DNA of 8,590 nucleotides from Acidobacteriota bacterium. Lineage in GTDB: Bacteria > Acidobacteriota > Polarisedimenticolia > Gp22-AA2. Shown piece by piece: positions 1 through 8,590 of the stretch (position 1 is the stretch's first letter; each line of letters opens with the position of its first letter). The translations under genes and the position numbers were made by a program. Under the pieces are notes generated by a model that searched no databases, had not been told where the DNA came from, and saw nothing but the letters and a program-made list of their open reading frames with translations. The DNA is taken from positions 1-8,590 of the forward strand of contig JAPUIN010000042.1 in the NCBI GenBank assembly GCA_027297005.1, given 5' to 3'.

Positions 1-1
1 C

Positions 2-505
2 GAGGACGTAGAGATCCCTGTGGGGAACCGCATCGGCGAAGAGAACAGCGGTTGGAAGTATGCAACTAGCCTCCTCCAGTACGAGCGCGGGGACGCGCTG
101 CTGATCGGCCAGTTCTCGCGTATGCTGCGCGACCTGGCCACCCTCACGCGGGAGGCGGACCCCAGTCCGCCGGCCAGGCGCGCGCTCGCGCAGCACCAGA
201 TCGATTGGGAGATCGGGCGGCTGTTGACGCTGCGTGTCGTCGACCTGCATGCCGCTGACGAACTGCCCGACCGCGAGTCGTCGCAGGCGAAACTGTTCAT
301 GAGCGAGGCCTTTCAGCGGCTGGGCGTCACCGCCCAGGGCATCACCGGCGAGTTCGGAAATCTGACGCATGAAGACGGGCGCTCGCGGCTGGGCGGCCGC
401 GTTGTTCAGGCGCTCATCAACGCAACGACAGGTACAATCATCGCCGGCACGTCCGAAATCCAGCGCACGATCATCGCTACGCGGGGATTAGGACTGCCCC
501 GCTAG
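2..505 (+). CDS. Acyl-CoA dehydrogenase, C-terminal part (5' end outside window)
   Basis: The reading frame is open from the window edge, so only about the last 167 residues are present. The N-terminal FAD-binding domains lie upstream, outside the window. The family oxidises acyl-CoA thioesters to 2-enoyl-CoA with FAD and passes electrons to ETF. Visible marks are the VxVP-like EDVEIP and the GEENSGW turn (fragment residues 1-18), which lead into the C-terminal helical domain, and the C-terminal AGTSEIQR (near residue 150) followed by the GLGLPR tail. The MCAD-type catalytic Glu of the EGT motif is Ala here (IIAGTSE). However, a Glu-Arg pair in LQYERGD (E28, codon 83-85) sits where isovaleryl-CoA and long-chain dehydrogenases keep their catalytic base, so the enzyme may be active. 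It converges on the next gene with only 10 bases between stop codons. Substrate cannot be inferred. Confidence 0.9.
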   Translation, partial: EDVEIPVGNRIGEENSGWKYATSLLQYERGDALLIGQFSRMLRDLATLTREADPSPPARRALAQHQIDWEIGRLLTLRVVDLHAADELPDRESSQAKLFMSEAFQRLGVTAQGITGEFGNLTHEDGRSRLGGRVVQALINATTGTIIAGTSEIQRTIIATRGLGLPR

Positions 506-515
506 CGTTGCGGCA

Positions 516-854
516 CTACACACGCCGTACAACGTGCAGCAGGTACTCCTTGCGGTTCAGCGGATTGTTGTCCGAGCGCGGTAAGGTCGGGACGCTGCCA
601 CGGACCGGTTCGTAGCGGCTGAACGCGCACTCCAGCACTCCTTCGCCGCGCGTCACACCTCCCAACTGCTGCTGTAGCTCGTGGACGCGAGCCACCGGAA
701 CCTCACCCTCTAGCACGTACGACGAACCCCGCAGTACCTGCGTTTTAGGAATGGCACGCAGCCGCGCCAGCACGGGCATTGTCGCTCCAAATGTGTCCGC
801 CGGGATGTCGAGGTGAAAGTTTTTGGGCTCCTTGCCGGGATCCGCTTCGGCCAT
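516..854 (-). CDS. Stand-alone C-terminal domain (domain V) of an EF-G/Tet(M)-like translation GTPase, 112 aa
   Basis: Residues 13-112 match the C-terminal end of EF-G-like ribosomal-protection-type GTPases, from memory most like the actinobacterial Tet(M)/EF-G-like group. The recognisable pieces are FHLDIPADTFG, VLEGEVPVARVHELQQQL, TRGEGVLECAFSRYEPV, and the tail NPLNRKEYLLHVVRRV. In the full-length family this ferredoxin-like domain helps dock the factor near the ribosomal GTPase centre. The GTPase domain, domain II and domains III-IV are absent: upstream there is only a non-homologous 12-residue leader and then the PAP2 gene. I chose the ATG at 852-854 because AAGGAG (864-869) sits 9 bases before it. 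The frame stays open upstream to 1232, but that part overlaps the PAP2 gene out of frame and looks non-native. It may be a decayed gene fragment that acquired a start, or a small functional protein. The domain match is strong; the function is unknown. Confidence 0.72.
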   Translation of the reverse strand: MAEADPGKEPKNFHLDIPADTFGATMPVLARLRAIPKTQVLRGSSYVLEGEVPVARVHELQQQLGGVTRGEGVLECAFSRYEPVRGSVPTLPRSDNNPLNRKEYLLHVVRRV

Positions 855-863
855 CGGTCTTGG

Positions 864-869
864 CTCCTT
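864..869 (-). promoter_or_regulatory. Ribosome binding site AAGGAG of the orphan EF-G domain V gene
   Basis: CTCCTT on the plus strand reads AAGGAG on the minus strand, 9 bases before the ATG at 852-854. It decides the start and suggests that the fragment is translated on its own. Confidence 0.6.
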
Positions 870-997
870 ATCTCTGTTCGGAGAGACGATTTCTATCATC
901 CCGGGCGAGGGGATATCAAGTGCGATCGCCACGTCCCGTGTCGAGCCGCTCCAGCTCGTCGACCGAACGCGACCCCACGGAATACCCGGACAGGCTC

Positions 998-1876
998 CTA
1001 CGGTCCGAGATGAATACGCACACCGAACCCGCCCGGGCCCGCCATCATCGCGTACCGCGCCCCTCGCCGTCGGCCGGAGGAGCGATCGTCCGGGCGCAGA
1101 TCGTGACGACGGGCGAGAGCCTTCCCGATCACAATCCCGAGGGCTCCGCCGGCCAGCACGTCCGAGGCCCAGTGTGTGCTGTCCTCGAGACGCGCCAGCC
1201 CGACGAGGGTGGCGATCGGGTAGGCGACCCAAGCGGCGCGCGGCCCGTACGACTCGGCGAAGACGCTCGCGATCGCGAACGTCCTCGACGTGTGTCCCGA
1301 GGGGAACGCCGATTCCCCCTCCCAGAACTGGCCGGTCGATCCCGGCTCGTCCGGCCGCTCCCGTGCGAACAGCCCCTTGGCGGCCGCCGTGATGACGCCC
1401 GTGTAGACGAACGACTCGAATGCCACAGCCGATGTGCGCCGCAATCTGTCGCGCCCGAAAAAGCGCCCCAGCAACCAGCCGCCCCCCGTGATGACGAAGC
1501 CCGAACCGGCCCGTCCGATCGGCTCGAAGATCCGTTCCAGATCACCGGTCGTCTCTGAGCGATGCCCCTCGAGCCAGTCACGGAGCTCCTCGTCGCGCGT
1601 CACCAGGTAGGCAGTCGCACCGACGACTGAAGCGGTGATGAAGACCCCCCGTCTCGTCGGACGGGAGGGAAAGGTGAGGAGATACTTCCCGTCGTCCAGA
1701 AAGGTCCGGGAGTGCTTTCGGAATCCGGTCTCCCCTCCTCCGGAACGGTTCTCAGCGGTTGGATTGCCCGTGTCCTCCTCCGCAGCCGGCGGGCGATCCT
1801 TATCCGTCGCGAACGGGAGGGGACCAGCCGGAGTGGCGAGGAGAAGGAGAGACAAGAGGAGGGGGCGAATCCTCAC
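998..1876 (-). CDS. PAP2-superfamily phosphatase (exported or membrane-anchored)
   Basis: The 292-residue product carries all three signature motifs of the phosphatidic acid phosphatase type 2 / haloperoxidase-like superfamily: KGLFARERP (residues 167-175, KX6RP), PSGH (192-195) and RLEDSTHWASD (229-239, RX5HX3D). The catalytic residues are expected to be H195 (acid) and H235 (nucleophile). Members remove phosphate from lipid or isoprenoid phosphates at the membrane. The start is the GTG at 1874-1876. It overlaps the esterase stop as GTGA and gives an ideal signal peptide (MRIRPLLLSLLLLATPAG, residues 1-18). A longer ATG form from 1975 would put a non-native 33-residue extension before it. 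There is no strong Shine-Dalgarno sequence, so translation is probably coupled to the esterase. Hydrophobic stretches near residues 78-92 and 125-138 and around the motifs suggest a membrane protein. An undecaprenyl-pyrophosphate phosphatase or lipid phosphatase role is possible but unproven. Confidence 0.9.
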   Translation of the reverse strand: MRIRPLLLSLLLLATPAGPLPFATDKDRPPAAEEDTGNPTAENRSGGGETGFRKHSRTFLDDGKYLLTFPSRPTRRGVFITASVVGATAYLVTRDEELRDWLEGHRSETTGDLERIFEPIGRAGSGFVITGGGWLLGRFFGRDRLRRTSAVAFESFVYTGVITAAAKGLFARERPDEPGSTGQFWEGESAFPSGHTSRTFAIASVFAESYGPRAAWVAYPIATLVGLARLEDSTHWASDVLAGGALGIVIGKALARRHDLRPDDRSSGRRRGARYAMMAGPGGFGVRIHLGP

Positions 1877-2562
1877 GACGAGGAGAGCGGGCGCCGCAGG
1901 CGGCGGCGCAGCCAGTCGCCAATATCCTCGATCTCCTGTGGATGCACCTCGTGCCCCATGTTGTAGCTCTTCCACTCGACGTCGTAGCCTAGCTGGATCA
2001 GGCGATCCCGCGTCTCGGCGCCGCGATCCTCGGGGATCATCGGGTCCTGCCGGCCATGTGCCTGGAAGATCGACACGGCGCGGTTCGCCTTACTGATCTC
2101 CGATTCGACGGAATCTGCGCAAACGAGATAACACGACAGGGCGAGAATCCCCGCGAGCGCTTCGGAATGCCGCAATCCGACGTGCAGAGCCATCGCCCCG
2201 CCCTGGGAAAAACCGGCGAGAATCAAATTTTCCGCCGGCACGCCCCGCTCCTTCTCCCGGGCGATCAGGGATTCGATCTGCGCCGCCGACTCGCGGATCC
2301 CCTCCTCGTCGTGGTTGCGCCCCAGATCGATCTCGCGGATGTCGTACCAGGCCGGCATGATCAACCCCATGTTGATCGTCACCGCTCGCTTCGGCGCATG
2401 CGGGAAGACGAACCGCACACCATGGTCATCATCCATGCCGAACGAGGGGACGATTGGCTCGAAGTCGTGCCCATTCGCCCCCAGGCCGTGCATCCAGATC
2501 ACGGTCGATTTGACGGGCCCCGTGGGAGCCACCTCGACGCAGGGAAGGATTTCAGTCGCCAA
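1873..2562 (-). CDS. EstB-like carboxylesterase / phospholipase (alpha/beta hydrolase)
   Basis: The 229-residue product belongs to the small carboxylesterase / lysophospholipase family (Pseudomonas EstB, yeast Ypl/APT1-like), and its length fits. The conserved features in order are the oxyanion loop HGLGANGHDF (25-34), MPAWYDI (69-75), the nucleophile elbow GFSQGG with Ser119, HGRQDPMIP with Asp173, and GHEVHP with His204, which together form a Ser-Asp-His triad. It hydrolyses short-chain or lipid esters and shows no signal peptide, so it is probably cytoplasmic. I chose the TTG at 2560-2562 because GGAGG (2571-2575) lies 8 bases upstream, and the resulting N-terminus (MATEILPCVEVAP) fits the family. 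A TTG at 2598 in the same frame would add 12 residues of unlike composition. The gene overlaps the PAP2 gene by 4 bases, so the two form an operon, possibly for lipid turnover. Confidence 0.92.
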   Translation of the reverse strand: MATEILPCVEVAPTGPVKSTVIWMHGLGANGHDFEPIVPSFGMDDDHGVRFVFPHAPKRAVTINMGLIMPAWYDIREIDLGRNHDEEGIRESAAQIESLIAREKERGVPAENLILAGFSQGGAMALHVGLRHSEALAGILALSCYLVCADSVESEISKANRAVSIFQAHGRQDPMIPEDRGAETRDRLIQLGYDVEWKSYNMGHEVHPQEIEDIGDWLRRRLRRPLSSS

Positions 2563-2570
2563 GCCGCGAT

Positions 2571-2575
2571 CCTCC
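2571..2575 (-). promoter_or_regulatory. Ribosome binding site GGAGG deciding the TTG start of the esterase
   Basis: The minus strand reads GGGGAGG, with GGAGG 8 bases before the TTG at 2560-2562. No comparable site precedes the alternative TTG at 2598. Confidence 0.7.
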
Positions 2576-2633
2576 CCTAAAAAGCCGGCCGGGCCCAAGC
2601 CCCGCGGTGCTCGCGCTGGCGGAGCAGGGGCCT

Positions 2634-2663
2634 AAAAAAGAGGCGGGGTTCCCCCCGCCTCTT
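2634..2663 (-). terminator. Rho-independent terminator of the PuuD-like gene
   Basis: A perfect 11-base-pair stem (AAGAGGCGGGG at 2638-2648 with CCCCGCCTCTT at 2653-2663) closes a 4-base loop. On the minus strand it runs into a T-tract (2634-2639 reads TTTTTT). It lies about 107 bases after the stop of the PuuD-like gene and separates it from the esterase operon. Confidence 0.9.
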
Positions 2664-2769
2664 CCAGCGTCTGCTACCTCTTGATGTCACGGCATATTTG
2701 AGATCACTGAATTGTGGCCGATCCGCAGCGCCGATCGGGCGCGCGTCGAGCGGCTTGCCAGTTTTCTCC

Positions 2770-3552
2770 TCAGTACTTCGACGGCGACGCCGAGGCCGAT
2801 TTGGCGTACATCCAGTACGTGAAAAGGAAGCCGACGATGACGAAGCCGATGGCGTACATCCAGCTGTTGTTTCCGCCGTAGACTGTCGGGTAGTGATTGC
2901 TGATCATCAGGAACAGCAGAGGGACCGACATGTAGGTATTGTGCTTCGAGCGCATCCCGGCCACTGCGACCAGCGCGCCGTCGGGCGCCTGACCGTCCCG
3001 AATCGCCGCGATGATCTTGCGCTGCGCCGGCCAGATCCGCATCCAGACGTTGGCCGCCATCGCGGTCCCGAAGATCGCGCCGATGTGAATGAAGACCGCC
3101 CGTCCGGAGAAGATGCAGGACATCCCCCACGCCGCGCAGGACAACAGAACGAGAGAGATGACGGTGCCGATGAACGGCTTCCCCTTCAGTCCCGTGTTCC
3201 ACAACAGGTCATAGATGAAGAACCCGACGATCATAACCCCGAGCCCGACCATCGTTCCGACACCGGCGCTCCACGTGCAGTCGGGCCTCAGAAGATTCCC
3301 GCCCATGTAGTAGACGATCCCGAGCAGCAGGATGCCGGTGATGAAGGTCCAGGCGGCGCCCCAGCGAAACCAGAACAGGGCGCGCGGCATCAACTCGGGA
3401 ACGACCTTCCTCTTCGAGTCGGCGTCGAACGTCTTGGCCACCTGGCTGTTGACGAAATTAAAGAACCACAGATGGCCGATCCACATCACCCCGGCGATCA
3501 CGTGGGCCCATCGGAATACGACATTCAGCCATTCGTTCAGCCAGTCGGCCAT
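2770..3552 (-). CDS. PuuD-like integral membrane protein (urate hydroxylase family membrane domain, no cytochrome c domain)
   Basis: The 260-residue, multi-pass membrane protein resembles the membrane part of PuuD, a bacterial urate-oxidising enzyme. Canonical PuuD is longer (about 420 residues) and ends in a periplasmic cytochrome c domain. Here the protein stops after the last membrane helix with a short Ser-rich tail (KSASASPSKY), and no CxxCH haem motif is present. The N-terminal RWAHVIAGVMWIGHLWFFNF (residues 14-33) supplies His17 and His27, and H156, H204 and H220 are further candidate haem or metal ligands. Hydrophobic segments lie near residues 10-35, 64-82, 98-116, 128-147, 153-170, 207-219 and 231-250. 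The ATG has GGAGGAGG 10 bases upstream (core 3563-3567). It is a single-gene unit with its own terminator. No other purine-catabolism gene is visible nearby, so a true urate oxidase role is unproven; a different haem-linked redox role is equally possible. Confidence 0.8.
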   Translation of the reverse strand: MADWLNEWLNVVFRWAHVIAGVMWIGHLWFFNFVNSQVAKTFDADSKRKVVPELMPRALFWFRWGAAWTFITGILLLGIVYYMGGNLLRPDCTWSAGVGTMVGLGVMIVGFFIYDLLWNTGLKGKPFIGTVISLVLLSCAAWGMSCIFSGRAVFIHIGAIFGTAMAANVWMRIWPAQRKIIAAIRDGQAPDGALVAVAGMRSKHNTYMSVPLLFLMISNHYPTVYGGNNSWMYAIGFVIVGFLFTYWMYAKSASASPSKY

Positions 3553-3602
3553 TCGAGTTTTCCCTCCTCCGCGGGAGTCAGCGGAATTGTTGGATTCATC
3601 GA

Positions 3603-3617
3603 GAACCGGAGCGGTTC
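3603..3617. repeat. Inverted repeat upstream of the PuuD-like gene
   Basis: GAACCG-GAG-CGGTTC is a perfect 6-base inverted repeat 51-65 bases before the ATG of the PuuD-like gene. It could be a regulator site or a small 5' leader hairpin. The 236-base gap (3553-3788) also holds the 3' end of the ABC operon. I see no convincing promoter or terminator in it, and a nine-base direct repeat, GGAACGCGC (3744-3752 and 3774-3782), has no obvious meaning. Confidence 0.35.
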
Positions 3618-3788
3618 CGGGGAATCTGCTCGGCCGCCCATCCTATTCAAATCGACCGCCAACCCTAAGTAAGAGGATACGTGCGGTCGGACGGGATGTC
3701 GGACTGGACCGCTCTGGGTTGCGCAGTCTACGACAGGGGGCGGGGAACGCGCAAGACGAAGGGGAACCGGCCCGGAACGCGCCGTTTG

Positions 3789-5717
3789 CTAACAGGTGCC
3801 ACACCAAGGCCCGGAGATCGCCTCCATCCGATTGAAGCTCGATTCCACCACGAGATAGGAGGCCAGGAGCAACAGGCCGCTCGCGATCCAGACCGTTACC
3901 GCGCCGCCGGGCAGCGCCTCGGTGAGGGCGCGAACCAGGATCTGCATGAACCCGGCCACTACCGAGAGTTCCACCTGATCCGTTATCGCCAGAAGGAATT
4001 GGCCGACGTGAATACCGAGCGTCACCACGAGGATCCCGATGTAGACCGCCTTACGGATCCCATCGGAGATCCCGGTCCGGAACGTGCGCAGGTAAATCGC
4101 CAGAAGAATCAGCCACAACACCGACGATGCCAGGATCAGCAGTGGAAATTCGGGACCCACGCGGCGCGGCTTCAGCTCGGGATAGTCCCGCTCGAGCGTC
4201 AGGCCTCCCGGGGCCGCAGACACCCACCCTCCTTCGTCGACCTCGAGATATCGGTCAATGATTTCCTCGGCCGGGATCGCATGCCCATAAATCATTTCTG
4301 TCGCCCGGCTGATCTGGTGGGCGACGAACTCCACCGAGCCATCCGCCGGCGTACTGTAGGGCGAGTAAAGCACCGCTCTGCTGCCGTTGTAGAGCGCCAC
4401 CTTCCAGGCCGGGTGGGACTCGCCCCAGAGGGATCCATTTTCGGGAGGCTGGCCGTCCCAGGCGATCTTGCACGCCGCGAGCGGCACGTACAGAGAGTGA
4501 CCGCGGTCCTCCTTGCGATACTCGATTTGCTCCTTCGGCTCCTCCCTCCACGCCGCCATCAGCCATCCTCCCCCGTAGCCGAGGCAAATCAGGAACAGGC
4601 TGGGCACGGTCACGCAGGCGAACAGCCGCCGGCGCGAGATCGGCAGGTGATCCAGGAGATGAATGCGTCCCGTCAGCGGCGCGGAGAAGGCAAACAGAAT
4701 GTAGGAGACCATCACGATATGCGAGTAGCGGAGGTCTTCATCCTCGCCGAAGAACGCCCCCCCGAGGACCATGCCGAAGAGGAGCAGGAGCGGCAGGATC
4801 AGAAGCCCCACAAGCGGCTTCTTCGCGAGCGTCTGGTAGATCATCGAATACAGGAGCCAGGCCCGGCCTGCCCCTGACCGCGCCGCCCCTGCCGCGACGG
4901 GCCAGTCATCAACCTTGACCGAGCCGGAGTTCGCTCCGTGCGGACCCGGCATCCCATCAATCATCCCGCCCATCGCGTCCAGCTCAATGGGCACAAGGGT
5001 GAATGACGCCGGGAGCGTTCGATAGGTCCGAACGGCGATCGCGATCGCCACGCCCAGAGGAACGAGGCTCACCCAGGTAGGACTCTCGCCGAGCATCACG
5101 ATCAACAGGAGGACCCCGAAAATCGTCGCCGCGAGGAAGGGGACAAACCTGCGATCGGCCGGAATCTCACGCAAGCCCGGACGCCGGCTCTGCAGGAGCG
5201 CTGTCGCGAGGACGAGACCAATGATGAGGTGGATCACCAGGCGGGTGACATCCGGCTCGAACAACGGCGCGCGCTCCGGGGCCAGGGCACGCAACGATGC
5301 GATCGCAGCCACGAGGCCGCCCGATACAGCGAGGATGGCGGCGCCGGACAGGATCACCGCCACCTGGTGTACGAGCCACAATTGACGGGAGGGGACCGGC
5401 ATCGCCAGGGCGAACGGACCGCATCGAGTACGGAATCCCGGCGAACAGAGGGAGATCGCGATCGCCGCCCAGAAGCAGAGAGCCCACGCGGCATGATCCC
5501 AGAACGGATTGGCCAGGAGGGAACCCCCGGGCAGACGCCTGGCCAGGGTGACGACGCTGAGCATCACTGTCGTGATGACCACCGCGATCGGGAGCCACCG
5601 CGGAAGGGATCGGATCATGGGATCCTGACGTAGCCAGCTCCAGAGTCTGCCCGGCACTCCGAGGCTCGCACCGGCCGTCGTGGTGATCGCCTGGTCGCCG
5701 CGGTGCGCCGCGCTCAT
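3789..5717 (-). CDS. ABC-2-type transporter permease with large extracytoplasmic domain, last gene of GntR/ABC operon
   Basis: The 642-residue protein is the permease partner of the ATPase encoded just upstream. I count about 12-13 hydrophobic segments in two groups (residues 41-231 and 302-387), then a hydrophilic region of about 135 residues (388-523), then 3-4 more segments (524-625). The hydrophilic domain is Tyr/Trp/Gly-rich (DGQPPENGSLWGESHP, VDEGGWVSAAPGG) and is likely exposed outside the membrane. A further polar linker spans 232-301. The ATG at 5715-5717 overlaps the ATPase stop as ATGA and has GGAGG 6 bases upstream (5724-5728). A longer in-frame start at 5792 lies inside the ATPase gene and is rejected. 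The size is larger than typical YtrC/YtrD-type permeases (about 330 residues), so this may be a fused or single-chain version. The substrate is unknown; envelope-stress or antimicrobial export is inferred only from context. Confidence 0.88.
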   Translation of the reverse strand: MSAAHRGDQAITTTAGASLGVPGRLWSWLRQDPMIRSLPRWLPIAVVITTVMLSVVTLARRLPGGSLLANPFWDHAAWALCFWAAIAISLCSPGFRTRCGPFALAMPVPSRQLWLVHQVAVILSGAAILAVSGGLVAAIASLRALAPERAPLFEPDVTRLVIHLIIGLVLATALLQSRRPGLREIPADRRFVPFLAATIFGVLLLIVMLGESPTWVSLVPLGVAIAIAVRTYRTLPASFTLVPIELDAMGGMIDGMPGPHGANSGSVKVDDWPVAAGAARSGAGRAWLLYSMIYQTLAKKPLVGLLILPLLLLFGMVLGGAFFGEDEDLRYSHIVMVSYILFAFSAPLTGRIHLLDHLPISRRRLFACVTVPSLFLICLGYGGGWLMAAWREEPKEQIEYRKEDRGHSLYVPLAACKIAWDGQPPENGSLWGESHPAWKVALYNGSRAVLYSPYSTPADGSVEFVAHQISRATEMIYGHAIPAEEIIDRYLEVDEGGWVSAAPGGLTLERDYPELKPRRVGPEFPLLILASSVLWLILLAIYLRTFRTGISDGIRKAVYIGILVVTLGIHVGQFLLAITDQVELSVVAGFMQILVRALTEALPGGAVTVWIASGLLLLASYLVVESSFNRMEAISGPWCGTC

Positions 5718-6628
5718 GCCTGCCCTCCACGCTCGGAGGCGCGGCTTCCGACCAGCTCGATGAACATCTCCTCGAGGGCGACCGACCGGCAACGCGCCCC
5801 GTCGACGCCCAGGCCACGCTCCAGGACGGCACGGCTGGCATCGGGGCCGAGTTGGAAGACGGCGTGCATTGCCACCGATCCCTCCCGCACGCCGAGGCAG
5901 CCGTCCAGTCCGAGCAGGCTCTCGCGCGTCACCTTCGGCCCGCGTGGCACCAGCGCCAGCGAGAACTCCTCGCGCAACTGATCGAGATCGTTGTCGATCA
6001 TCACGCTGCCGTCATGCAGCATGACGATGCGACCGGCCATCCGCTCGACGTCCCCCATGTAGTGCGATGAAAAGATGATGGTCGTGCCCGCCTCGTTGAG
6101 CAGCTGGATTGAGGTCTCGAGGAACTGGCGTCGTGCCACCGGGTCGAGACCTCCCGCCGGCTCGTCCAGCAGCAGCACCTCCGGCCGGTGCGACACGGCG
6201 CACAGCAGGGCAACCTGGCGCGCCTGCCCCTTGCTCAGGGTAGCCACACGCGCCTTCGCCGGCAGCTCGAACTGCCCCGCCAGGTCGCGCGCCAGCGCGT
6301 CATCCCATCCCGGAAAAAGGCCACGATGCAGATCGATCACCTCCGCCACCGTGAGGAAGGGCGGCAATGTCTGATCCTCGGCGACGTAACCGATGCGCTT
6401 CTTGATCTCGAGCGGCTTTTTGCGCGGATCGAGCCCGAACACCCGCACCGATCCGGCCTGCGGCTCGATCATCCCCATCGCGATCCGCATCAGTGTCGTC
6501 TTGCCGGCGCCGTTGCGGCCGAGCAGCCCGACGACGTCGCCGGCGCTGACTGAGAAGCTCACGCCTCGCAGCACGTCGACGCCGCGCCGGTAGGCACGAT
6601 GAACGTTGTCGAACTCGAGGACCTTCAT
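5714..6628 (-). CDS. ABC transporter ATP-binding protein (YtrB-like)
   Basis: The 304-residue protein has every core ABC motif: Walker A GRNGAGKT (37-44), a Q-loop region in YVAEDQTLPP (81-90), the signature LSKGQ (131-135), Walker B VLLLDEP (151-157, with Glu156 as catalytic base), and the switch His189 in SSHYMGD. The last roughly 80 residues (225-304) form a C-terminal accessory region typical of this export-type subfamily. It drives the neighbouring permease from the cytoplasm and probably works as a homodimer with one or two permease chains. The ATG at 6626-6628 overlaps the GntR stop as ATGA and carries GGAGG 6 bases upstream. The gene is likely repressed by the GntR protein encoded just before it. 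Assignment as an ABC ATPase is secure; YtrB-like is inferred from the YtrA-type regulator beside it. Confidence 0.95.
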   Translation of the reverse strand: MKVLEFDNVHRAYRRGVDVLRGVSFSVSAGDVVGLLGRNGAGKTTLMRIAMGMIEPQAGSVRVFGLDPRKKPLEIKKRIGYVAEDQTLPPFLTVAEVIDLHRGLFPGWDDALARDLAGQFELPAKARVATLSKGQARQVALLCAVSHRPEVLLLDEPAGGLDPVARRQFLETSIQLLNEAGTTIIFSSHYMGDVERMAGRIVMLHDGSVMIDNDLDQLREEFSLALVPRGPKVTRESLLGLDGCLGVREGSVAMHAVFQLGPDASRAVLERGLGVDGARCRSVALEEMFIELVGSRASERGGQA

Positions 6629-7068
6629 TGCTCGCCTCCTCCCCCATCCTGGGGCGGTGCATCCGACCCCCCCTTCGACATGCCCAGCATGCCGCCGAAA
6701 ACCCTCAATGCATCATCCCTGCTGATACCGAGCTGTCGAGCGACACGGGCGGCGGACCCGAGGCTCCCGCGGAGCTGCTCGAGGCGGCGCTCGCGCACCT
6801 GCCCGCCGTCGAGCGCTCGGACGACGAGCGGCCGCCCCGGACGGCGTTCGATGATTTCGTCCCGTTCCAGAATGTTGTACGCCTTGCTGATCGTCATCGG
6901 ATTCACCCCCAGCTCCGAGGAGAGCACGCGCGTCGACGGCAGCTCATCGCCCGGCTTCAGGAGACCACTGGCGATGTAAAACCGGATCTGATCCATCAGC
7001 TGCCGGTAGACCGGCACACCACTGTTCGGATCGACCACGATCAGAACGCGCGCTTCCATCTCGGTCAT
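6625..7068 (-). CDS. GntR-family transcriptional regulator, YtrA subfamily
   Basis: The 147-residue product has the winged helix-turn-helix of GntR regulators at about residues 13-84: VPVYRQLMDQIRFYIASG, LPSTRVLSSELGVNPMTISK and AYNILERDEIIERRPGR. Only a short helical tail follows (about residues 90-130, then a Gly-rich end), with no large effector domain. That is the hallmark of the YtrA subfamily, which usually represses ABC transporter operons. The start is the ATG at 7066-7068, directly after the TGA of the preceding gene, with GGAG (7075-7078) 6 bases upstream. An ATG at 7057-7059 would also be in frame but lacks that spacing. The two matching repeats at the operon promoter (7558-7584 and 7603-7629) are the likely operators, so the gene is probably autorepressed. 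Confidence 0.93.
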   Translation of the reverse strand: MTEMEARVLIVVDPNSGVPVYRQLMDQIRFYIASGLLKPGDELPSTRVLSSELGVNPMTISKAYNILERDEIIERRPGRPLVVRALDGGQVRERRLEQLRGSLGSAARVARQLGISRDDALRVFGGMLGMSKGGSDAPPQDGGGGEQ

Positions 7069-7482
7069 TCAGAACTCCGGACCGGTCGACTCCCAGTTCC
7101 CGCCCAGTACGCAGCGCAGCAACGTCGACGCGGCGCCGTGCGCCACACGCCCCACCATTGCGACACGGCGGACCGTCGCCGCGAAGGAACGACCGCCCCG
7201 GCCGGCGAGCGAGATCCGCTCCCCTTTGCTCGCCGGCTGCCAGAACTCCACCCGCATCCCGCGGCCCCCGTCAACCCGGGCATCGCCGATGCTCAGGCGG
7301 ATACCGACACCGTGCTGACCTCCCTCATCGGCGGGGAGACCGGAACCGGTGTACGCGACGAGAGCAACGGAGCAATGCGGCACGTTCGCCCGCACGAACG
7401 CACCCAGGGCGAGAGGAGCGCCCAGCATCAATAAGGTTGTAAGAACGATGATACCGATGCGAACCATGTCGCGTCCTGTCAT
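7069..7482 (-). CDS. Small membrane-anchored or secreted protein of unknown function, first gene of ABC operon
   Basis: I do not recognise this 137-residue protein. It starts at the ATG 7480-7482, which has GGAGG (7488-7492) 5 bases upstream; a longer GTG frame from 7554 lacks support. Residues 8-30 form a hydrophobic segment (RIGIIVLTTLLMLGAPLALG) after a short charged N-terminus, so it is a signal anchor or signal peptide. The remainder (31-137) is a small, Gly/Arg/Val-rich domain with two cysteines (C37 and C124) and alternating hydrophobic strands such as IRLSI and MRVEFWQP, consistent with a beta-rich extracytoplasmic domain. It is the promoter-proximal gene, directly before the GntR gene (TGA-ATG). 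Being co-transcribed with an ABC exporter it may sense substrate, act as an accessory subunit or be an immunity-type protein. None of these is shown by the sequence. Confidence 0.72.
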   Translation of the reverse strand: MTGRDMVRIGIIVLTTLLMLGAPLALGAFVRANVPHCSVALVAYTGSGLPADEGGQHGVGIRLSIGDARVDGGRGMRVEFWQPASKGERISLAGRGGRSFAATVRRVAMVGRVAHGAASTLLRCVLGGNWESTGPEF

Positions 7483-7557
7483 ATCAACCTCCCCCTTGCC
7501 GTCGTCCGGAACCCGGCTCCACCTTCCCTGCCGTTCGGCCCCCTGGATCTCCACAGC

Positions 7558-7584
7558 AAGTGAATTATTTGACTAATACACATT
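7558..7584. promoter_or_regulatory. Putative GntR/YtrA operator 1 (over the transcription start)
   Basis: A 27-base site with AAGTGAAT at the left and TAATACACATT at the right. It shares the pattern AAGTGnAT-N8-TAATACAnATT with a second site 45 bases away (19 of 27 positions identical). It covers the predicted start of the operon. A perfect 8-base inverted repeat, AAGTGAAT (7558-7565) and ATTCACTT (7582-7589), begins within it and reaches the -10 box. Its half-sites resemble those reported for Bacillus YtrA (AGTGTA and TACACT). Confidence 0.6.
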
Positions 7585-7588
7585 CACT

Positions 7589-7617
7589 TTTATACGACGC
7601 CCAAGTGTATATGTCAA
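7589..7617 (-). promoter_or_regulatory. Sigma-70-type promoter of the small protein-GntR-ABC operon
   Basis: On the minus strand TTGACA (7612-7617) is followed by a 17-base spacer and TATAAA (7589-7594), a near-perfect match to the housekeeping consensus. Transcription would start near 7582, leaving a leader of about 100 bases before the ATG at 7482. Confidence 0.82.
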
Positions 7618-7629
7618 GTAATACAGATT
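7603..7629. promoter_or_regulatory. Putative GntR/YtrA operator 2 (over the -35 box)
   Basis: The second 27-base copy has AAGTGTAT at the left and TAATACAGATT at the right, with AGTGTA-N12-TACA as its core. It encloses the -35 box (7612-7617) of the operon promoter. Binding at both sites would block polymerase from both sides of the -10 box. Confidence 0.6.
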
Positions 7630-7680
7630 AAGAAATTCGACTACTTCTACAAAGTATTTAAATACAGCAAGTTACGGATT

Positions 7681-7707
7681 ATACGGAAGCCCTGTTCTCC
7701 TCCGTAT
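7681..7707. repeat. Inverted repeat ATACGGA-N13-TCCGTAT
   Basis: Perfect 7-base arms (7681-7687 and 7701-7707) with a 13-base spacer. It lies between the divergent transcription units and could be a regulator site distinct from the YtrA-type operators. There is no match to a family I know. Confidence 0.35.
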
Positions 7708-7733
7708 CGTCCCTTCGGATCGGTTTGGAGCTG

Positions 7734-7758
7734 CCTGTCCACGGAGGGGGTGGGCAGG
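7734..7758. repeat. Hairpin with a GGAGGGG loop
   Basis: CCTGTCCAC (7734-7742) pairs with GTGGGCAGG (7750-7758) over nine pairs, one of them G-U. The 7-base loop is purine-rich, GGAGGGG. It lies just upstream of the predicted helicase promoter and has no T-tract, so it is not an obvious terminator. Confidence 0.35.
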
Positions 7759-7764
7759 AGGGGC

Positions 7765-7793
7765 TCGACAATTTTGACCATCTGCCCTATGAT
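7765..7793 (+). promoter_or_regulatory. Putative promoter of the DEAD-box helicase gene
   Basis: TCGACA (7765-7770), a 17-base spacer and TATGAT (7788-7793) each match the sigma-70 consensus at five of six positions. Transcription would begin near 7800, giving a leader of about 205 bases. Confidence 0.5.
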
Positions 7794-7841
7794 GGCCGCG
7801 TAACAGAACCGCGAGCTGGCAGTCTTCACCTACCGGAGTCG

Positions 7842-7959
7842 ACCCGCTCAGGGGCGGGTTCCAGCCTGAACGGCTAGAACAAAACGTTCCCACAAGGTTC
7901 AATTTAAAAATACGGCTGCGGCCGAATGCCGTGGTCAGCCTGCGGCCCTCCGGCCGCGG
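7842..7959 (+). other. Structured 5' leader of the helicase mRNA (predicted hairpins)
   Basis: Three stems can be read directly: ACCCGC/GCGGGT (7842-7847 with 7854-7859); GTTCCAGCC/GGCTAGAAC (7858-7866 with 7872-7880, one mismatch, sharing two bases with the first stem, so the two compete); and GCGGCC-CTCC-GGCCGC (7942-7957). Long structured leaders are known from cold-shock RNA helicase genes such as csdA/deaD, so temperature or autoregulatory control is a reasonable inference. Confidence 0.4.
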
Positions 7960-8005
7960 TCATCACACGCCGTGCGCCATGCGCGCCGGCACTAAGGAGA
8001 TTCTG

Positions 8006-8590
8006 TTGCCATTCAACGAACTCGGTCTCGCGAGCGAGATCACGCGCGCAGTGTGCGAAAAGGGATACCGGACCCCGACACCCATTCAAAAGGGGACCAT
8101 CCCCGGCGTCCTCGCGGGGCGCGATCTGATCGGCTGCGCGCAGACCGGCACCGGCAAGACGGCCGCCTTCACGCTGCCGATCCTGCACCGCCTGCGCGCC
8201 GGATCACACGGCCGGCTGCGAGCACTGATCCTGACCCCGACACGCGAGCTCGCGCTCCAGATACGGGAATCGCTGCGGGCCTACGGCCGTCACGTGAGAT
8301 TGACCTCGACGGTCATCCATGGCGGCGTCGGCTACCAGCCGCAGGAGACGGCGCTGCGCCGCGGGGTCGACATCCTGGTCGCCACTCCCGGCCGCCTTCT
8401 CGACCACATCGGGCGCGGGAACATCAATTTCAAGAACCTGGAAGTGCTGGTCCTGGATGAAGCGGACCGCATGCTCGACATGGGATTCATCCGGGACGTG
8501 CGCCGCATCATCCGCGCGCTGCCGACCCGCCGCCAGACGCTTCTCTTCTCGGCCACGATGCCGGATGAGATCCGCCGCCTCTCCACGGAG
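8006..8590 (+). CDS. DEAD-box ATP-dependent RNA helicase, N-terminal part (3' end outside window)
   Basis: The frame runs from a TTG at 8006-8008 to the window edge, giving 195 residues of the first RecA-like domain. Motifs in order: the Q-motif region with YRTPTPIQ (about 21-28), motif I AQTGTGKT (45-52), Ia PTRELALQ, Ib TPGRLLDH, motif II DEAD and motif III SAT. The [12 protein letters not shown] stretch after motif II is typical of RhlE-type helicases. Such proteins unwind short RNA duplexes with ATP in ribosome assembly or mRNA decay. AAGGAG (7994-7999) lies 6 bases before the TTG, and the product begins MPFNELGL as RhlE proteins do. An in-frame ATG at 7979 would add nine residues but has no ribosome binding site. 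The C-terminal RecA domain is outside the window. Confidence 0.95.

Follow-up and report, generated by a model that had tools for sequence, protein, structure and literature searches.

Two similar sites on one promoter

The DNA analysed here (the window) is an 8,590-nucleotide stretch from an Acidobacteriota bacterium (assembly GCA_027297005.1, contig JAPUIN010000042.1, positions 1 to 8,590). It carries on its minus strand an operon encoding a small protein with a hydrophobic start, a YtrA-type GntR regulator, the ATPase of an ATP-binding cassette (ABC) transporter and a large membrane protein (Table 1). In front of this operon, an earlier reading made from the sequence alone had picked out two 27-base sites starting exactly 45 bases apart, and these are present as it had them: AAGTGAATTATTTGACTAATACACATT at 7558-7584 and AAGTGTATATGTCAAGTAATACAGATT at 7603-7629, with starts separated by 45 bp and 19 of the 27 bases identical. 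The near-consensus TTGACA-N17-TATAAA promoter that it placed between them is likewise there, on the minus strand, with the upstream site on the -35 box and the downstream site at the transcription start, which, judging from the -10 box, probably lies near 7582. A consensus scan had failed to list this promoter because it requires a T at position 6 of the -10 box. The sites themselves are thus real, while the 27-base direct repeat did not survive as their unit: comparison with relatives suggests that they are better described as an imperfect 22-bp inverted repeat, GTGTATTA-N6-TAATACAC, whose AGTGTA/TACACT-type half-sites are, as had been noticed, those reported for Bacillus YtrA (PMC8060467). 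A scan of the window against Rfam at gathering scores gave no match.

Table 1. Features of the operon and of its promoter region
Feature	Position	Strand	Remarks
Operator 1 (upstream, contains the -35 box)	7605..7626	minus	CTGTATTACTTGACATATACAC on the minus strand; matrix score 26.4, window excluded from the matrix; identical 22 bases in loci L002 and L015
-35 hexamer TTGACA	7612..7617	minus	inside operator 1
-10 hexamer TATAAA	7589..7594	minus	17-bp spacer from TTGACA
Operator 2 (downstream, about +1 to +22)	7560..7581	minus	GTGTATTAGTCAAATAATTCAC on the minus strand; score 27.9
First operon gene, 137-aa protein, N-terminal hydrophobic segment	7069..7482	minus	ATG at 7482 behind GGGGGAGG
YtrA-type GntR regulator, 147 aa, presumed binder of both operators	6625..7068	minus	PF00392, 8.8e-16
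ABC transporter ATPase, 304 aa	5714..6628	minus	overlaps gntR; PF00005, 1.5e-27
Large membrane protein, presumed permease	3789..5717	minus	overlaps the ATPase stop codon; start 5717 chosen by us

Recurrence of the operator upstream of gntR

Related loci were collected with the GntR protein, for which a search returned 1,987 homologues; the best 120 were listed and 25 of them aligned. With this alignment, 113 loci were confirmed in genome contigs and 80 of them retrieved; their regulators reach 69% identity at most, while the closest homologues of the protein (P0002-P0012) are 70-84% identical. Additional loci came from four phylum-level sets of 47, 80, 20 and 396 genomes, of which 1, 32, 4 and 7, respectively, gave matches at the cut-offs used, and removal of identical upstream ends reduced 123 loci to 101 distinct regions, window included. 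With one mismatch allowed, the upstream regions of the window and of the 80 loci retrieved with the alignment contain 57 copies of GTGTA-N12-TACAC, two of them in the window itself, where the DNA downstream of gntR would lead one to expect 0.37. This half-site distance of 12 is sharply preferred over 13 (two occurrences), other peaks being found at 1, 4, 10 and 20 (6, 15, 15 and 20 occurrences), the last of which is the distance expected for an abutting half-site.

From the best site of each of 83 other loci, with the window left out, we derived a symmetric 28-position matrix. The two window operators score 26.4 and 27.9, far above anything among 96,847 control positions downstream of gntR (at most 4.1) or in 5,000 shuffles of the local sequence (at most 20.4), which assigns both of them to one operator family. 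No other position in the window scores above -0.2; a further palindrome-like stretch at 7654, with a score of -0.2, was not taken as a site. These controls bear directly on whether the repeats could have arisen by chance in AT-rich intergenic DNA. With up to three mismatches, the pattern proposed in the sequence-only reading matches the two sites alone in the window and nothing in 200 whole-window shuffles, a zero that flatters the finding because the pattern was chosen post hoc and lies in an AT-rich spot of a GC-rich window. When only the local 150 bp were shuffled, 2 of 200 shuffles contained a 27-base pair of equal or greater similarity, and the 27-base similarity is on its own not overwhelming. 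Chance is nevertheless contradicted by the matrix and shuffle tests, none of the 5,000 local shuffles having reached 26.4, and by the presence of the motif in front of gntR in loci of several phyla, and we regard its probability as negligible.

An operator scoring at least 10 within 700 bp upstream of gntR was found in 89 of the 101 distinct regions, window included, and four more (L050, L066, L072 and L099) have a best site between 6 and 10 only. Since the sites precede related YtrA-type gntR genes so regularly, autoregulation by the GntR protein is the best reading of them. Not all loci follow the common form. In locus L009 the operator, with an extra half-site directly after it, lies 1,666 bp upstream of gntR, a distance at which other genes may have entered the operon. 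In the distant relatives L098 and L100-L103, whose regulators are 37-40% identical, at least one half of the operator carries the variant GTATATTA or CTATATTA, possibly reflecting a shift in specificity.

Fourteen whole genomes were also scanned with GTGTATTANNNNNNTAATACAC. At up to two mismatches the pattern occurs at 13 places in nine genomes, 12 of which are just upstream of this gntR (the exception being one place in genome G010), which shows that regulator and motif go together and points to a probably narrow regulon. The genomes were, however, picked for loci fetched with this gntR, and the scan is therefore no independent discovery of the motif. In genome G002 (contig C75, 61948-62329), a more distant second GntR gene (E 1.2e-21) has a weak motif (three mismatches) 43 bp upstream, and it may be that GntR paralogues kept the same type of operator. 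The sites might conceivably serve the divergent DEAD-box helicase gene, alone or along with the transporter operon, since this plus-strand gene starts near 8006 (in our reading) and shares the intergenic region. The operators, however, overlap the minus-strand promoter about 380 bp from the helicase start, and across loci the motif accompanies gntR and the ABC ATPase gene, making such control highly improbable.

We therefore take the two sites to be operators at which the YtrA-type GntR protein, product of the second gene, would act on its own operon, a reading to which we give a probability of about 0.82. A GntR dimer on operator 1 would cover the -35 box, and one on operator 2 would cover the transcription start and the first transcribed bases, so that each end of the core promoter would be closed to RNA polymerase. 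In this way the operon, with its genes for a small membrane or secreted protein, the repressor, the ABC ATPase and a membrane protein, would repress itself until a signal frees the repressor. What the sequences show is the operators, how they are conserved next to gntR genes of this type, where they lie on the promoter, and the order of the genes; binding by this particular GntR protein, repression rather than activation, and induction are what we infer.

Several observations weigh against this reading. In the genome scan, relaxing the pattern to three mismatches gave 25 places in 11 of the 14 genomes and the reversed pattern, used as control, gave 40 (22 of them in G010), and the three-mismatch genome count was set aside because the control exceeds the pattern. 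The reversed control was not split by mismatch number, which leaves the 13 places at up to two mismatches without a control of their own. Each window operator has one imperfect half, which is CTGTAT in operator 1 and TTCAC in operator 2. Eight of the 101 regions have no site scoring at least 6 within 700 bp: L005 has only four bases of upstream DNA, L009 has the distant site mentioned above, and L011, L049, L053, L106, L107 and L110 have no site in the upstream DNA examined. L008, the nearest neighbour of the window in the regulator tree, has a single site without TTGAC. Finally, a single operator is the rule (79 of the 89 loci), and the scheme can do without operator 2. This last count, together with the 13 loci of the 23 described below that carry TTGAC and have no second operator, would suit an alternative in which operator 1 does the work, operator 2 being a redundant or little-used copy. 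In the window, however, operator 2 slightly outscores operator 1, and the second sites of the ten paired loci score 19.3-29.4 (although some were among the sites from which the matrix was built), which makes redundancy unlikely.

Paired operators and abutting half-sites

In 23 of the 89 loci, window included, TTGAC stands at one particular offset inside the operator, which then reads GTGTATTAC-TTGACA-TATACAC; it is by this offset that we delimit the TTGAC class. A second operator (score at least 10, less than 80 bp downstream) is found in 10 loci of this TTGAC class, namely the window and nine others, versus none of the remaining 66, the upstream operator containing TTGAC in all ten pairs (Fisher p 2e-7, post hoc). 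Since links of this kind between layouts were found after looking and the loci are related, their Fisher p-values are too small. Two second matches, scoring 9.1 (L042) and 9.4 (L121), lie more than 200 bp away and were excluded as pairs. In the paired loci the best -10-like hexamer 16-19 bp past TTGACA (TTGACT in L004) is at 17 bp in eight cases and at 18 bp in two, and it has 3 to 5 of the 6 consensus bases, although some best hexamer will always exist in such a range. As far as these sequences allow it to be placed, the second operator appears to start shortly past the -10 box, on or near the transcription start.

It had been suggested that conservation in close genomes should be sought for both copies and for their 45-base spacing. 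Both copies do recur in nine other loci, while the spacing varies. From start to start it is 45 bp in the window, 49 in L001, 48 in L002, 37 in L004, 44 in L010, 42 in L023, 43 in L028, 42 in L029, 45 in L086 and 43 in L117. The distance of 45 bp is thus found again in L086 only, and no helical period is discernible over the range of 37-49 bp (Rayleigh p about 0.45; n=10, a weak test). Phasing is inexact in the window too, where 45 bp correspond to 4.3 turns at 10.5 bp per turn, and strict helical phasing, and with it the description of the sites as phased and exactly 45 bases apart, was abandoned.

The same distances are relevant to whether the two operators are bound cooperatively, by protein-protein contact or by a small DNA loop over about four helical turns. 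Seven of the ten paired loci are spaced by 42-45 bp (4.0-4.3 turns), and BusR, a tetrameric member of the GntR family, recognises bipartite sites at a fixed distance according to the account in PMC8517857. No fixed distance of the BusR type is seen in the paired loci, however: spacings of 37, 48 and 49 bp put the sites on other faces of the helix, and the structural model of the regulator shows just two helices past the DNA-binding domain. We consider cooperative binding doubtful, if worth keeping in mind. The variation in spacing argues for two mostly independent steric blocks, as in the autorepression proposed above, over a fixed-distance ruler or loop.

Loci of the TTGAC class that have no second operator tend to show something else, a third half-site TAATACAC abutting the operator directly downstream. 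With a score threshold of at least 2, set by us, this half-site is present in 11 of these 13 loci, in 1 of the 10 paired loci (L002) and in 19 of the other 66, in which no other offset exceeds 7/66. The mirror position upstream of the operator has a half-site in none of the 23 TTGAC loci. Raising the threshold to 4 and 5 leaves 10/13 and 9/13 unpaired loci versus 1/10 paired, and the inverse link between pairing and abutting half-site has a p of 0.0006, 0.003 and 0.01 at thresholds of 2, 4 and 5, respectively, again post hoc. Paired and unpaired loci are not separated in a poorly resolved tree of the regulators (44 rows with at least 50% identity), the paired group needing six label changes against a mean of 7.8 after shuffling, and 63 of the 500 shuffles needed no more than six. 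Branches with good support require only one change, so pairing may have a single origin. We tentatively suggest, at somewhat less than even odds, that where an operator of this one group of related YtrA-type regulators has come to include the -35 box, it is strengthened either by a third half-site abutting it downstream or by another full operator at the transcription start, and hardly ever by both. Layouts that do not occupy separate branches of the tree would fit mutual replacement in evolution, the same job being done with a different stoichiometry, which, if this is true, would mean an extra subunit on the third half-site versus a second dimer on the second operator.

The regulator, its operon and known YtrA-type systems

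The assignment of a YtrA-type GntR gene to this operon, already made in the sequence-only reading, is borne out by the PF00392 match, the helices of the structural model and the fold matches. The winged helix-turn-helix domain at residues 21-83 scores 57.8 bits against a cut-off of 27 and is followed by the reduced C-terminal part of the YtrA subfamily (about 50 residues, two alpha helices), the modelled helices lying at 88-112 and at 117-132 (mean pLDDT 76, with an unreliable tail at 133-147). Fold matches were found to the small GntR proteins 4ham, 6sbs, 3by6 and 2du9, with query TM-scores of about 0.5-0.65; 6sbs (0.50), the YtrA of Sulfolobus, is also the best sequence match in the Protein Data Bank, and 2du9 (0.65) is a Corynebacterium glutamicum protein. 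With an ATPase gene overlapping gntR, regulator and ABC transporter genes stand in one operon, and the operator is a long palindrome with distant GT/AC half-sites. In all these respects (domain, helices, ABC operon and palindrome) the window protein appears to be a member of the YtrA subfamily, as far as sequence and model can tell.

The last three genes of the operon (GntR, ATPase and membrane protein) overlap or adjoin. In 114 of the 123 loci, counting the window and duplicates and irrespective of strand, the start of an ATPase homologue lies 150-3000 bp downstream of the gntR reference point. The large membrane protein matched no Pfam or NCBIfam family at 1e-3 and, although its partner ATPase is conserved, gave no tblastn match in other loci at 1e-3, where many loci end 1.9-3.4 kb after gntR and so offer a partial region. 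For the 137-aa product of the first gene, a protein search found two homologues among 63 candidates, 98% and 68% identical. Between operator and gntR, nine loci near the window also have a reading frame that encodes 102-137 residues and begins with a hydrophobic stretch, with little sequence similarity; we picked these frames ourselves, and the ones chosen in L006 and L086 are overlapped by a longer frame. Among the ten first-gene products compared there is one strong pair (L007-L036, 6.4e-28) and several weak ones, down to 6e-6 when only these ten proteins are searched and composition is not corrected for; the best value for the window protein is 0.002, with L036. Such weak similarities do not establish a shared family, and position is the main link. 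Elsewhere on the minus strand, a membrane protein at 2770-3552 matches the urate oxidase N-terminal family PF06181 (1e-62).

The closest parallel is provided by the ytrGABCDEF operon of Bacillus subtilis, in which, too, a small GntR repressor comes second, after the gene of a small membrane protein and before ABC transporter genes, and in which an AGTGTA...TACACT-type operator precedes the regulator's own operon (PMC8060467, PMC12772383). YtrA is described as repressing via AGTGTA-13bp-TACACT (PMC8060467), whereas the half-sites here are 12 bp apart. The first gene product has 137 residues as opposed to 45 in YtrG, the likeness being one of gene order and position, and there are two operators here, while YtrA of B. 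subtilis also controls a second operon. YtrASa of Sulfolobus acidocaldarius resembles the present system as an autorepressor in an operon with a membrane protein gene, with a site over the transcription start and extra half-sites nearby, but the site described there is one 32-bp inverted repeat with a 14-bp core and not two of 22 bp (PMC6746942). PmtR of Staphylococcus aureus is another YtrA-type GntR repressor of an ABC transporter operon that binds across the transcription start (PMC5080381). A single protected region of 36 bp is reported in that account, and the window data give no pointer to the inducers of PmtR. NCBIfam models of PmtR and PmtA do match, far below their cut-offs. In the survey of Suvorova and others (2015), YtrA regulons are portrayed as single-operon regulons with ABC transporters and long palindromes with far-apart GT/AC, and weaker extra half-sites 7-12 nt from the operator centre are already described there (PMC4494728); the abutting half-site found here starts 11 nt from the centre. 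The 10 of 89 loci with two operators differ from that description, and by this one survey the double layout is uncommon in the YtrA subfamily.

The type of switch is thus already known, and what the window appears to hold is, on well-supported grounds, a fairly ordinary self-regulation in a double layout that recurs in some relatives only. Its wider interest is that it yields a predicted operator code for YtrA-type regulators in contigs titled Eisenbacteria, Krumholzibacteriota, Latescibacterota, Gemmatimonadota, Acidobacteriota and others, together with a comparative set for asking how a minimal GntR protein may work from a single operator, from an operator with an added half-site or from an operator pair when the promoter core is the same.
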